DNA of 20,977 nucleotides from a virus, in the IMG/VR virus record IMGVR_UViG_3300025687_000415, positions 1-20,977 of that record, one strand, 5' to 3'. The number at the start of each line of letters is the position of its first letter. Position 1 is the stretch's first letter. The notes beneath the pieces are model-generated. The model was not told the DNA's origin, searched no databases, and saw only the letters and a program-made list of their open reading frames with translations. Both the position numbers and the translations under genes were made by a program. Positions 4,177 through 20,977 of the stretch are shown one piece after another.

Positions 4177-7071
4177 TTATCCGTAGTTTAGACTATCAAA
4201 CAAATCATTATTATTATTTACACCAATTGCAATTGGAAGTATTCCACCAGTCTCACCATAATCACTTTCCATAGGAACAGGAACTTCAACAGGAACTTCA
4301 ATATACACTGTTTCTGTTTCATAAGAAGCATAATTTCTTAATACATTCACAGCATCTTTATATTTTGCTTTGTTAATCGCATCCAAGAATCCTGGGAATG
4401 TTGCTTCGATTGCTGATGTAGAATCAGCATCTATGACAAACTCTGGACCCTCTTCACCCAACATTGCAAAATGAGAAATGCCTTTAGTTTTACCACCTCT
4501 GGAATATGCCACATGAACGTGATTGGAATGAAGTGCATTGGGTGCAGATTCATACTTTCCAAGACCTTTAAATGCGGGAGATCCATGAATTATTTCAACT
4601 GGTTTATATCCATTCTTCTTATTCCACTCCAACAGTGCTCTAATTACAGGTGCTTGCTCATCTCTTCCACCAGAACTTGGGTGGGCGGGACCCCAACCAC
4701 CAATATCCAGTGCTCTATTTTGATTATGATATGAAAAATAATTTCTTCTTTCTTGTCCAGGATGTCTTGGATGTTGATGAATATCACCAGTAACACCGAT
4801 CTTACTTCTATTTGCTTTCATAAAATCTCCCAAATCACCAGCAATTTTCACACCACCTGTTCCATATCCAGCACCAGTTCCACCACCAACAAAAGTTCCT
4901 CCAGCACCTCCAGCACCTCCACTAAAACTTGCTAGAGCATCAGCAGCAAATTGATATCTCCTTGGATAGTTTGGTGTTCCAGCTCTTTCCATTTCTCTTT
5001 CAAATATTTCAACTGCTTTTTTATAAGATGTTACACTTTTAATTCTATTATAAGTTCCATATGATTTCATCTCTTTTACCATCCACTCAACTTGAGTTTC
5101 AAGTGCCCAAGGGTCTTTACCAGAACTTTTAGCCCAAGCACTTAAAGATGCCCATCTTTCACTTTCAGTCCATTGCATTATTCCACGACCAGGACCACCA
5201 CGTAATTGCCTAGACTTTGGATTTACACCAGATTCTTGCATCAAGTTTCCAATTATTCCAGCAGCTGCCTCTGGAGTAAATCCTTCTTTATCTACAAGAT
5301 ACCTGAAGACCTTTTCAGCATTACTATTACCAGTTAAAGTTGGAGATCCTGTTGGTTCTTGTTCGGGTTCAGTCACCTGACCCTTATCTTTTTTATTTGG
5401 TTTACCTAACATTATCTCTTTCATTAAATCATTAATTGCAGAATCTACTTCAGAAGAAACACTATCTTTTACTGATTTTGCAATGATATCACTCATATCC
5501 TCACCTGAGAAAATTTTCTTCATATCAACTTCACCACCACCAGCAAATCCAGCACTAGATGAAAATGAACTACCTATCCAATTGTTAAGGGAAATACCAA
5601 TATTCTTATAGTCAATTTCATTTGGTCTATCACCAGATAAAGTTTTTATTGCAAGAGAAAACAATGGTCCAAAAAATGGTATCTTACCCATCTTCTGATT
5701 TTGATCTTTCAAATAATCAATTTGAGAATCTGTGTATATCGTTTCCAGTTTCTTTTCACCACCAACATCCTTTCCTGGTTTAATTTTTTGAGGAGTAACT
5801 GAAACTCTTCTTCTTACTTTTGTCTTCTTTACAGTTCTTTTTGCAGGACCTCCAGTAAGTTTTCCCGCACGAGTTACAGCACCTCCACCAACTTTTCTTG
5901 GTGCTTTATCTTTTGGTGTTGGTTTTTTATTCTTAAAGAACATTTCATAAAGTTTTCCACCAACTTCACCACCAATAAATCCACCAATGGCTGCACCAAT
6001 TGGACCACCAATCGCAGTTCCAACAGCACCAACTAATAAAGAACCAATACCTCTAAATGCTGCTTTACCAACTGGGTCTCCAAGTGCCCAAGATAATGCA
6101 AATTCAGTAAGACCACCAATGATTGGTATGTTTCTGAGTAATGGTGTTGCTAACCTAAGCAGTGCTTTGGTTCCTCCTTTCCCAAGAGTACCAACTAGAG
6201 CATTTCTACCAAGTTTAGTCAGTGCTCCTCTTGCAGCATTTTTACCAACATTCTTTAAGTTTTCTTTGCCAAATCTTCTTAAAAATTGTTCTTTGCCATA
6301 TCTCTCAAAATATCTTTTTTGCAAGTTTCTACCAACTCTTCTTCCACTTCTATCAAATCCTCTTCTTCTAATACCACCTCTACCAAAACCCTCATCACTC
6401 ATTGCACTATCTGCTGCAAGCATTCCTGCGATTACAGCATAATTCATAAAGGTTGTCAGCCCAGATGCAAGTTTATCAAAGTTCTTGGCACCATCCTCAC
6501 CTGCTATATTTTTGATAAATCCCTTAGTCGCATCAACTGCTTTATATCCCCAATCAATAAATGTAACTAATCCATTCAATAATTTACCACCAATATCAAT
6601 TACAAAATCAAAAGCAGGAGCAGCAATCTTTAGAAATCTAAGAATTTGTGGACCATAATCAATCAAACGATATAATATAAAACCAGTCAAAGTTTTCAAT
6701 ATAAAATCACCTATAGTAGCAAACAATCCTCTTCCAGGAAGAGAAGGTAGTTTTAAACCTGCTTTTTGTTTATCTCCTTTAGGTTTTTCTAGTTTCTCTT
6801 CTTTCTTTTCTCTCTTATCATCCTCTAGTTGTTTTTTTACAATAGCATTTTCTTCTTTATTCTGTAATACTAGAGCACCTAGAAGTTTATCAACATCAAT
6901 TACTTTTTCCTTTATACTATAGAATACTTTATTAGATGATGTGGATGTGGACTTTATTATTCCAGAACTTTCACTATCAAATTTTTTAGGTGCTAAGAAC
7001 TTATCTGCTTTTACGATTGCAGAACTAGACTTTTTAGCAGCAGGTAATAACTTGGATGGATTGATAGCCAT
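4177..7071 (-). CDS. Tape-measure/hub-like tail protein with lysozyme-like and M15-peptidase-like domains
   Basis: This 964-aa protein has several parts. Residues 55-105 are a highly charged likely coiled coil. Residues 115-180 are hydrophobic (LFATIGDFILKTLTGFILYR), and about 330-375 form a Gly-zipper stretch (GTAIGGPIGAAIGGFIGGEV). Residues about 582-710 resemble the phage tail lysozyme family: EKVFRYLVDKEGFTPEAAAG, then GNLMQESGVNP with a candidate catalytic Glu near 610, and GRGIMQWTESERW. Residues about 755-855 resemble M15 peptidases: YHNQNRALDIG and NHVHVAYS, matching the S/xHxxxxAxD and HxH metal-site patterns. The C-terminus has GEEGPEFVIDAD, often seen in tape-measure proteins. It would degrade peptidoglycan glycan and peptide during DNA entry, and may supply the gp29 tape-measure role. 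Its start overlaps the previous gene's stop by one base. Domain calls are by motif; tape-measure role is inferred. Confidence 0.8.
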   Translation of the reverse strand: MAINPSKLLPAAKKSSSAIVKADKFLAPKKFDSESSGIIKSTSTSSNKVFYSIKEKVIDVDKLLGALVLQNKEENAIVKKQLEDDKREKKEEKLEKPKGDKQKAGLKLPSLPGRGLFATIGDFILKTLTGFILYRLIDYGPQILRFLKIAAPAFDFVIDIGGKLLNGLVTFIDWGYKAVDATKGFIKNIAGEDGAKNFDKLASGLTTFMNYAVIAGMLAADSAMSDEGFGRGGIRRRGFDRSGRRVGRNLQKRYFERYGKEQFLRRFGKENLKNVGKNAARGALTKLGRNALVGTLGKGGTKALLRLATPLLRNIPIIGGLTEFALSWALGDPVGKAAFRGIGSLLVGAVGTAIGGPIGAAIGGFIGGEVGGKLYEMFFKNKKPTPKDKAPRKVGGGAVTRAGKLTGGPAKRTVKKTKVRRRVSVTPQKIKPGKDVGGEKKLETIYTDSQIDYLKDQNQKMGKIPFFGPLFSLAIKTLSGDRPNEIDYKNIGISLNNWIGSSFSSSAGFAGGGEVDMKKIFSGEDMSDIIAKSVKDSVSSEVDSAINDLMKEIMLGKPNKKDKGQVTEPEQEPTGSPTLTGNSNAEKVFRYLVDKEGFTPEAAAGIIGNLMQESGVNPKSRQLRGGPGRGIMQWTESERWASLSAWAKSSGKDPWALETQVEWMVKEMKSYGTYNRIKSVTSYKKAVEIFEREMERAGTPNYPRRYQFAADALASFSGGAGGAGGTFVGGGTGAGYGTGGVKIAGDLGDFMKANRSKIGVTGDIHQHPRHPGQERRNYFSYHNQNRALDIGGWGPAHPSSGGRDEQAPVIRALLEWNKKNGYKPVEIIHGSPAFKGLGKYESAPNALHSNHVHVAYSRGGKTKGISHFAMLGEEGPEFVIDADSTSAIEATFPGFLDAINKAKYKDAVNVLRNYASYETETVYIEVPVEVPVPMESDYGETGGILPIAIGVNNNNDLFDSLNYG

Positions 7072-20189: not shown

Positions 20190-20284
20190 TTTCCTGCACC
20201 CACATTAGCAAGTTGTGCTTGGTGACGACGTTGCTCTTTTTGCTTCTGCTCTTTAATGAGTTGAAGCACGTTGAGTTTTTTCAT
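20186..20284 (-). CDS. 32-aa basic helical micropeptide
   Basis: ATG at 20284 opens 32 codons: MKKLNVLQLIKEQKQKEQRR then HQAQLANVGAGK, stop TGA. It is basic, Gln/Lys-rich and probably a single helix with a short Gly tail. GAGGG lies ten bases upstream. It overlaps the preceding YRG gene by one base (TGATG) and the following membrane peptide by four (ATGA). No family recognised with certainty. Confidence 0.68.
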   Translation of the reverse strand: MKKLNVLQLIKEQKQKEQRRHQAQLANVGAGK

Positions 20285-20421
20285 CACTTATGACCCTCTT
20301 TAGTAAACTTAACACCACGATAGGTTTCGTCGTACTGTTGAGGTTGCTGCATCATTTGCTGTTGATACTCCAGACGCTTCTGGGTATCATACTCGATGCC
20401 ACGATATACTACTTTAGCCAT
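20284..20421 (-). CDS. 45-aa YRG-motif (DUF4278-like) protein, downstream peptide of the riboswitch
   Basis: The protein reads MAKVVYRGIEYDTQKRLEYQ, then a Gln/Met stretch, then YDETYRGVKFTKEGHK. Two Y-R-G motifs at both ends of a short chain are the hallmark of DUF4278-type small cyanobacterial proteins. Start ATG at 20421 is fixed by GGAGG at 20434-20430 with an 8-nt spacer; a longer open frame upstream only reads through the riboswitch. It is the first gene behind the glutamine aptamers and the kind of short protein after which the 'downstream-peptide' RNA motif was named. Function unknown; a link to nitrogen status is inferred from the riboswitch. Confidence 0.82.
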   Translation of the reverse strand: MAKVVYRGIEYDTQKRLEYQQQMMQQPQQYDETYRGVKFTKEGHK

Positions 20422-20450
20422 TGGAATTTCCTCCAGAATGAGATTTTTAG

Positions 20451-20541
20451 GCCCCGTTCCTTCGGTCGGTTTGCGTCCCATTGGGATGAACGTTCCGTTC
20501 CGCCGTCCTACTTGCGTCAGAGTTTCCTCTGATGAACGTAA
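20451..20541 (-). ncRNA. Glutamine riboswitch (downstream-peptide/glnA type), probably tandem
   Basis: The minus-strand leader contains CGTTCATC (20538-20531), a GAAA-capped hairpin AGAG/CTCT, GACGCAAGTAGG (20518-20507), and at the 3' end CCGAAGGAACG (20465-20455), where GAACG pairs with the first CGTTC. This is the conserved order of cyanobacterial glutamine aptamers. Between them a second set occurs: CGTTCATC (20492-20485), hairpin TCCC/GGGA, GACGCAA (20477-20471) and the same 3' end, while GGAACG (20501-20496) could close the first copy. So two aptamers in tandem, or one with a partly duplicated arm, are possible. The Shine-Dalgarno of the first gene is about 20 nt beyond, suggesting translational control. 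The region is visibly richer in GC than its neighbours. Confidence 0.85.
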
Positions 20542-20545
20542 GGTC

Positions 20546-20574
20546 ATTATAGACCCGTCAATCTAGTTATGCAA
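20546..20574 (-). promoter_or_regulatory. Sigma70-like promoter of the riboswitch operon
   Basis: TTGCAT (20574-20569), 17 bp, TATAAT (20551-20546). The expected start near 20539 coincides with the first base of the aptamer, supporting both calls. The other 35 or so bases up to 20611 hold no gene or clear terminator. Confidence 0.75.
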
Positions 20575-20611: not shown

Positions 20612-20815
20612 TTAATCTTGATTCTTTCTATCGTATTGATGCCACTTACACCACCCATCAGGTGAAATCTTACCTTTCACCGCAGTACAAGCATTAGGTG
20701 GTCTCCACATATTGCAGTTGGAGCACTTCTCATTTCCTTTAGGTTCATCAATATAACCTGCAGTTCTTTTTGAAGATTTCTCTTCTTCAGATAAAAACTC
20801 TTGAAAGGATTTCAT
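20612..20815 (-). CDS. 67-aa four-cysteine protein, HiPIP-like pattern
   Basis: The protein starts MKSFQEFLSEEEKSSKRTAG and has C31-x2-C34-x8-C43-x12-C56 with a G-W-C-K-W end (DGWCKWH). This spacing and the GWC motif resemble high-potential iron-sulfur proteins, where four Cys hold a [4Fe-4S] cluster, though the protein is short and lacks an export signal; a zinc-binding role is the alternative. ATG at 20815 is chosen over an in-frame TTG at 20833 since that TTG lies in the Shine-Dalgarno GGAGG. It overlaps the upstream gene stop by one base (TGATG). Confidence 0.75.
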   Translation of the reverse strand: MKSFQEFLSEEEKSSKRTAGYIDEPKGNEKCSNCNMWRPPNACTAVKGKISPDGWCKWHQYDRKNQD

Positions 20816-20977
20816 CAGTCTCTCTGCCTCCAATCGTCAGGTTTATCTCCACTGAAGAAATCAATAATATCATCAGCACTTTGAAATCCTGTTCTATGGT
20901 TTGATGGGTCAGGGTCTCCAAGGTCTAAAGCATTCATAAATCCATCAAGACTATCTTCCTGCATATTAGGATTTGCA
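20815..20977 (-). CDS. Unidentified protein, C-terminal fragment cut by window edge
   Basis: An open frame enters from the right edge and ends TGA at 20817-20815. The visible 53 residues are acidic (DSLDGFMNALDLGDPDPSNH ... SADDIIDFFSG) and end KPDDWRQRD. The final codons carry the GGAGG ribosome site of the next gene, with which it shares one base, so they are coupled. No family recognised. Confidence 0.7.
   Translation of the reverse strand, partial: ANPNMQEDSLDGFMNALDLGDPDPSNHRTGFQSADDIIDFFSGDKPDDWRQRD

Follow-up and report, generated by a model that had tools for sequence, protein, structure and literature searches.

The virus record IMGVR_UViG_3300025687_000415 of IMG/VR (positions 1 to 20,977; this whole 20,977-base stretch is referred to below as the window) belongs to a virus of ocean cyanobacteria and, among T4-like cyanophage genes (PhoH, ThyX), harbors a minus-strand leader. 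Two glutamine-riboswitch-like cores (20538-20454) begin 7 nt past a TATAAT box and precede a GGAGG motif (20434-20430) and a 45-codon DUF4278-like gene (20421-20284). The question raised by this locus is how the two cores relate to each other. The original prediction, made from the letters of the window alone, regarded them as tandem aptamers; instead, the leader is very likely best explained as a nested double glutamine-I riboswitch with which the mRNA of the DUF4278-like gene begins, one core being inserted in a circularly permuted order into a helix of the other. Comparison of related phage sequences establishes the pairing scheme, its conservation, the single-copy occurrence of the element and the constancy of its target gene.

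Two Cores and One Probable Canonical Aptamer

The repeats underlying the original prediction are real: on the minus strand, CGTTCATC begins at 20538 and 20492 and GACGCAA at 20518 and 20477, with a hairpin between the members of each pair, and GAACG occurs three times (20500-20496, 20495-20491 and 20459-20455), its middle occurrence overlapping the second CGTTC within the palindrome GAACGTTC. The assignment to the glutamine-I riboswitch (glnA RNA, RF01739), the location in a phage leader, the presence of two cores and the availability of alternative partners for the P1 strands have also withstood the analysis. As in glutamine-I, there are P1 (CGUUC/GAACG), P2, the loop E motif ACGNAAGUA...GAA, P3 and a long-range 23:60 pair. 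In the solved aptamer, glutamine contacts C1:G59, G2:C58 and G22, adjoining the long-range pair (Huang et al. 2019, PMC6698751); the loop E of glutamine-I, with G22 and G23 named, has been described as well (PMC5393176).

It is the tandem arrangement that fails. In the alignment of relatives, AGUA, the 5′ half of loop E, is present only in copy 1, and GAA, its 3′ half, only in copy 2, so P1, P2, P3 and a junction with the complete AGUA/GAA loop E are obtained only by combining halves of both copies, which gives one canonical outer aptamer. The second copy does lack GUAGG, as was noted earlier; the proposal that it is decayed was rejected, since identical features are missing from copy 2 of every aligned relative.

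The canonical outer aptamer would thus comprise the 5′ half of copy 1 and the 3′ half of copy 2, i.e., CGUUC(1), P2(1), ACGCAAGUA, P3, GAA and GGAACG(3), its P3 loop being replaced by the circularly permuted second core: GGAACG(1), a short linker, CGUUC(2), P2(2) and ACGCAAA. The two cores would sit back to back on one short common helix (P3), each with the glutamine-contacting nucleotides of the solved aptamer. The elements of this fold in the window are as follows (basis in brackets).

20454..20538, minus: complete nested double riboswitch (69.7 bits and E 4e-16 with model R1, trained without the window class)
20534..20538, minus: outer P1 5′ strand CGUUC(1) (pairing and comparison)
20518..20531, minus: P2(1) hairpin CAGAGGAAACUCUG, which can house a gene of ~66 codons in relatives (comparison)
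20514..20514, minus: outer-core position 23 (C), joined to G20454 by the long-range pair (nested partner present in all 311 loci, as C-G or G-C)
20509..20512, minus: 5′ half of the loop E motif, AGUA (loop E of glutamine-I according to PMC5393176)
20503..20508, minus: P3 5′ strand V1, GGACGG (5/6 positions pair with 20469-20464; covariation)
20496..20500, minus: inner P1 strand GAACG(1), partner of CGUUC(2) (pairing and comparison)
20493..20495, minus: linker GAA closing the inner P1 hairpin; first base is inner-core position 60, partner C20473 (comparison)
20488..20492, minus: inner P1 strand CGUUC(2) (pairing and comparison)
20477..20485, minus: P2(2) hairpin CCCAAUGGG, which can house a gene of ~54 codons in relatives (comparison)
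20470..20476, minus: inner-core junction ACGCAAA; C20473 is inner-core position 23 (comparison)
20464..20469, minus: P3 3′ strand V2, CCGACC (covariation)
20461..20463, minus: 3′ half of the loop E motif, GAA (comparison)
20455..20459, minus: outer P1 3′ strand GAACG(3) (pairing and comparison)

Evidence for the Proposed Nested Fold

The leader was found by blastn in 338 cyanophage records; pattern scans of IMG/VR yielded several hundred loci, 326 of them distinct after removal of duplicates. Across these relatives, P3 is a covarying pairing between the variable segments V1 and V2 of the two copies. The segments pair in register at 83% of positions vs. 9-46% when slid against each other (equal-length combinations), and cognate V1:V2 pairing beats all 5000 shuffles, length-matched ones included (0.746 vs. 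a shuffle maximum of 0.728). The innermost P3 pair is intact in 24/24 cases without breaks, being A-U, G-C or U-A. On the tree of the downstream gene (~45 residues), each side of P3 changes 53-54 times, and the supported independent comparisons (5/5, 8/8 and 8/8) all point in the same direction.

The long-range pair, whose 23:60 numbering in glutamine-I was set by analogy with C19:G41 of glutamine-II, concurs. Position 23 of copy 1 fits the base after GAACG(3) in all 311 loci (238 C-G, 73 G-C; C20514-G20454 in the window), the frequent C-G form being a departure from the G-C of the solved glutamine-I aptamer. Both 23:60 pairs are compatible with the nested reading in 306 of the 311 loci vs. 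237 with the side-by-side one. The contacts C1:G59, G2:C58 and G22 are present in both cores. In 176/176 loci with two short hairpins, the nested fold has the lower energy (-20.5 vs. -13.6 kcal/mol in the window).

Covariance models point the same way. The glnA search proposed earlier did match both copies, neither of them reaching the RF01739 gathering score of 35 bits: copy 2 scored 31.2 bits (E 5.7e-5) and copy 1 17.7 bits (E 0.3), and for glutamine-II (RF01704, gathering score 33 bits) the window scored 28.9 bits; a scan of the whole window at Rfam gathering thresholds reported nothing. Among 20 scanned relatives, 12 passed the RF01739 threshold (maximum 45.5 bits), six of them over the entire nested span; in the three best matches (45.5, 43.7 and 43.6 bits), this model, which contains no information on nesting, spans the whole unit and places P3 between the copies, the insert measuring 44 nt in S-H34. 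A single match with a variable arm spanning the middle had been named beforehand as the pattern that would speak against two aptamers; it is seen with Rfam in these six relatives, including the best three, but the middle itself is a conserved second core. The nested model R1, built from 34 relatives with the sequence class of the window held out, recovered the full 85-nt unit 20538-20454 as its sole match in the window (69.7 bits, E 4e-16); a side-by-side model from the same alignment gave 66.6 bits. The nested model had the better E-value in 19/19 loci and the higher bit score in 17/19.

Several observations weigh against the nested riboswitch. The search patterns held parts of the core fixed. 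The switch of 23:60 between C-G and G-C is mostly linked to clades (69 of the 73 G-C loci share one downstream sequence) and is represented by just two supported independent comparisons, though there are no exceptions. The side-by-side model scored ~3 bits higher for two loci of trained classes. Since the P1 strands are invariant in 213 loci except one, P1 covariation cannot choose between folds, and the side-by-side fold could still arise in one state. Furthermore, the 8-bp P3 class retains two A-C mismatches, the P3 of the window has an A-A mismatch, and P3 is weak in in silico ensembles (mean probability 0.06-0.23). Finally, glutamine binding, cooperativity and the direction of switching are inferred.

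The Inner Core and the Competing Explanations

Within P3, the inner core reads GGAACG-linker-CGUUC-AU-P2-ACGCAAA, i.e., in a circularly permuted order; its P1 is closed by the linker of 2-6 nt and its P3 side is open. It retains the pocket nucleotides and would most likely serve as a second glutamine site on the P3 that both cores have in common. Alternatively, the outer aptamer alone would bind glutamine, the inner element being a structural relic or a spacer. This is rather unlikely, even if the inner core has no loop E, its 23:60 pair fails in 5/311 loci (both facts also speak against the nested double riboswitch as such) and P2(2) tolerates large inserts. Against a relic or spacer stand the near-invariance of the inner CGUUC, GAACG and ACG junction, the 23:60 pair kept in the other 306 loci, and the P2(2) arms, which covary in every class.

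A strand-exchange switch, nested in one ligand state and side by side in the other, with identical P1 strands swapping partners, would be in line with the equal pairing potential of the four near-invariant P1 strands and with the short linkers. It is nonetheless improbable: the ligand-free ensemble already favors CGUUC1:GAACG3 (mean 0.82-0.86) over CGUUC1:GAACG1 (0.05), and the binding-site pair 23:60 picks the nested form for the bound state. Similarly improbable are two independent side-by-side glutamine-I aptamers (a "pseudo-cooperative" tandem with P1s CGUUC1:GAACG1 and CGUUC2:GAACG3), an arrangement permitted by the P1 strand sequences and by copy 2 alone exceeding the Rfam threshold in several relatives but faced with incomplete loop E in each copy, the poorer 23:60 fit and the worse energy given above, V1:V2 covariation left without a role, and units only 2-6 nt apart, hence with no room for an intervening expression platform.

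Genes Inside the P2 Hairpins of Relatives

Both hairpins of the window are short, the form seen in 176 of 312 loci with both hairpins classified. In the other 136, one or both P2 hairpins contain a complete open reading frame (ORF) of ~50-70 codons: P2(1) in 60 loci (ORF_A), P2(2) in 51 (ORF_B) and both in 25. The start codon adjoins or lies within the 5′ strand of P2, and the stop lies within or near the junction. Thus, ORF_A starts 10-12 nt past the C of CGUUC(1) in 81/86 loci and ends with the UAA of CAAG-UAA in 28, nearly all others stopping ≤12 nt before the junction. ORF_B starts 9-11 nt past the C of CGUUC(2) in 77/78 loci and ends with the UGA or UAA of GAC-UGA-AGGAACG in 74/78, so that its last codons (e.g., WDAND) are the riboswitch core.

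The P2 arms around the ORFs are complementary beyond shuffled partners (0/3000), and the helix extends into the AUG in 48/81 and 69/77 loci for ORF_A and ORF_B, respectively. In the class with a V1 length of 5, a GGAG Shine-Dalgarno motif is present in the linker of 45/46 loci with ORF_B vs. 6/79 without it, an association with few supporting independent comparisons on the tree. In L085 (near 2063-2097), the second hairpin starts with CGTTCATCCTAGGAGGTTTTTATG, where the embedded start codon is preceded by a strong Shine-Dalgarno motif of its own.

Substitutions in the embedded ORFs are concentrated at third codon positions. All full-length embedded proteins contain exactly two cysteines (83/83 and 78/78), and hhalign relates the ORF_A and ORF_B families to each other (probability 97%). 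Their matches are phrog_6471, 13397 and 504, all unannotated in function; AlphaFold2 predicts a helical hairpin (pLDDT 83), for which no PDB match was obtained at E ≤ 0.001. The embedded genes are not an assembly fault, because they are found in the complete isolate genomes of S-CAM8, S-RIM2, P-SSM7, S-SZBM1, DSL-LC02 and S-SRM01. In DSL-LC02, which encodes a DUF4278-like protein with 89% identity to that of the window, ORF_B takes the place of the 9-nt hairpin of the window.

P2(2) is often a near-identical hairpin of 21-22 nt, TTCGCTATT..AATAGCGAA (many relatives, e.g., L026, L036 and L043); 70 of the 71 copies found are inside the riboswitch.

Transcription Start, Controlled Gene and Distribution

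The signals flanking the riboswitch in the window and the gene it precedes are listed below.

20569..20574, minus: -35-like hexamer TTGCAT, 17 nt from the -10 box (putative; weak sequence match)
20546..20551, minus: -10 box TATAAT, 7 nt upstream of the riboswitch (sequence and relatives)
20430..20434, minus: Shine-Dalgarno GGAGG of the controlled gene (sequence)
20284..20421, minus: controlled gene, 45-residue DUF4278-like protein MAKVVYRGIEYD...YRGVKF (phrog_5049; Pfam E 9e-4, phrog_5049 E 1.5e-11)

Because an exact TATAAT lies 7, 8 or 10 nt ahead of CGTTC in 143/313 relatives, the RNA probably starts at the aptamer itself. The -10 box of the window is flanked by the inverted repeat GGTC/GACC (20555-20552, 20545-20542). 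In the window (20556-20542) and in relatives, the box is in the loop of such a repeat, the arms of which vary by phage and are still complementary (GGTC/GACC, GAGTC/GACTC, TGTGTTA/TAACACA), in relatives far in excess of shuffled controls.

The controlled protein possesses two YRG motifs; its match to the Pfam family DUF4278 is under the gathering threshold. A YRG protein is encoded downstream in 295 of the 297 relatives in which an ORF was found; therefore, the target is constant. The entire leader is also open in the DUF4278-like frame, forming an 87-codon ORF (20547-20284, minus), probably by chance. Upstream of the riboswitch, a 73-residue protein (20612-20833, minus) with spaced cysteines shows a weak match to high-potential iron-sulfur proteins (Pfam E 4e-4, just under threshold).

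In ten of 12 isolate genomes, R1 found one match each, and none in the other two at that stringency; by this comparison, the riboswitch is single-copy in phage genomes. Plasmids gave no match. In a scan of contigs for host copies with a loose pattern, the listed loci were scattered across unrelated bacteria and archaea. L143 (near 6500-6800) shows three consecutive units (short; with ORF_A; closing), V1 of unit 2 pairing with V2 of unit 3 and unit 1 having no partner; perhaps it is a recombinant.

Between the riboswitch and the Shine-Dalgarno motif, ~30 of 307 relatives display an extra conserved hairpin, ACGGAUC[C/A]-NNN-GAAA-NNN-..AAAGG (L004, about 1646-1690; L021, L045, L075 and L089), with two-sided compensatory changes in six of its seven pairs and no significant Rfam match. 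Perhaps this hairpin is another regulatory RNA, as yet undescribed.

Proposed Mode of Action

Glutamine bound at one or two sites on the shared P3 would stabilize the nested fold. If both cores bind glutamine, the folding of one may favor that of the other via P3, giving a steeper response than a single site; such cooperative binding of two ligands is made plausible by the shared helix. Glutamine-I and glutamine-II riboswitches switch expression on in the presence of glutamine (PMC6316151). By analogy, the bound RNA would raise translation of the DUF4278-like protein, and the phage regulator would thereby be tied to the nitrogen status of the host. The computed accessibility of the Shine-Dalgarno motif with vs. 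without outer P1 has no consistent direction, rising at 51 loci and falling at 60.

In the relatives with embedded genes, this fold would trap the embedded start codon in a helix, and the embedded and downstream genes may therefore react to glutamine in opposite ways: low glutamine would favor the embedded genes, and the ribosomes translating them would undo the sensor. The cyanophage riboswitch could be a two-output either/or switch, in which a glutamine aptamer is set in circularly permuted order into another, the P2 stems of this scaffold accommodate as many as two entire genes of small two-cysteine proteins, glutamine-induced folding traps the embedded starts and opens the DUF4278-like gene, and embedded-gene ribosomes unfold the sensor. 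This complete scheme is tentative and somewhat doubtful.

Relation to Known Riboswitches

Similar to cyanobacterial glutamine-I representatives, the element is located upstream of a DUF4278-type gene (PMC6316151); unlike them, it houses a second, circularly permuted core in the P3 loop and, in relatives, genes in the P2 hairpins. With glutamine-II (downstream-peptide RNA), it shares a near-identical ligand pocket, a start codon within or adjoining the aptamer, and DUF4278 genes, found there in picocyanobacteria; glutamine-II is, however, a pseudoknot, whereas the element of the window is a three-way junction. The tandem glycine riboswitch likewise has a pair of homologous amino-acid sites that serve a single expression platform, but its aptamers are consecutive and mutually contacting, whereas in the window a helix of one core encloses the other core.

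Sherlock et al. (2022) reported 157 doublets and four triplets of glutamine riboswitches, considered pseudo-cooperative, i.e., functioning independently (PMC9481103). In all likelihood, these arrays are of the type described here. Pseudo-cooperative tandems imply two complete independent aptamers, each with an expression platform; the window displays instead a 3-nt linker, a split loop E and nested 23:60 pairs. Since the acceptance rule for tandems in that work was the absence of an ORF between domains, the gene-bearing forms would be excluded. In a review of natural circular permutation, the examples listed are ribozymes, introns, rRNA, tmRNA and others, with no riboswitch named among them. 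No earlier description of the nesting or of the embedded genes was found in the open-access papers covered, key papers lying outside this set, and the novelty of both features is provisional.

Implications

Among glutamine riboswitches, the largest "tandem" group may be nested rather than tandem, in which case the predicted stoichiometry and cooperativity would change. Genes in aptamer stems would represent a compact overlap of a sensing RNA and coding sequence, one that would be missed by current annotation rules requiring no ORF between domains. The nested riboswitch offers a directly testable model of how a phage may read the nitrogen status of its host.
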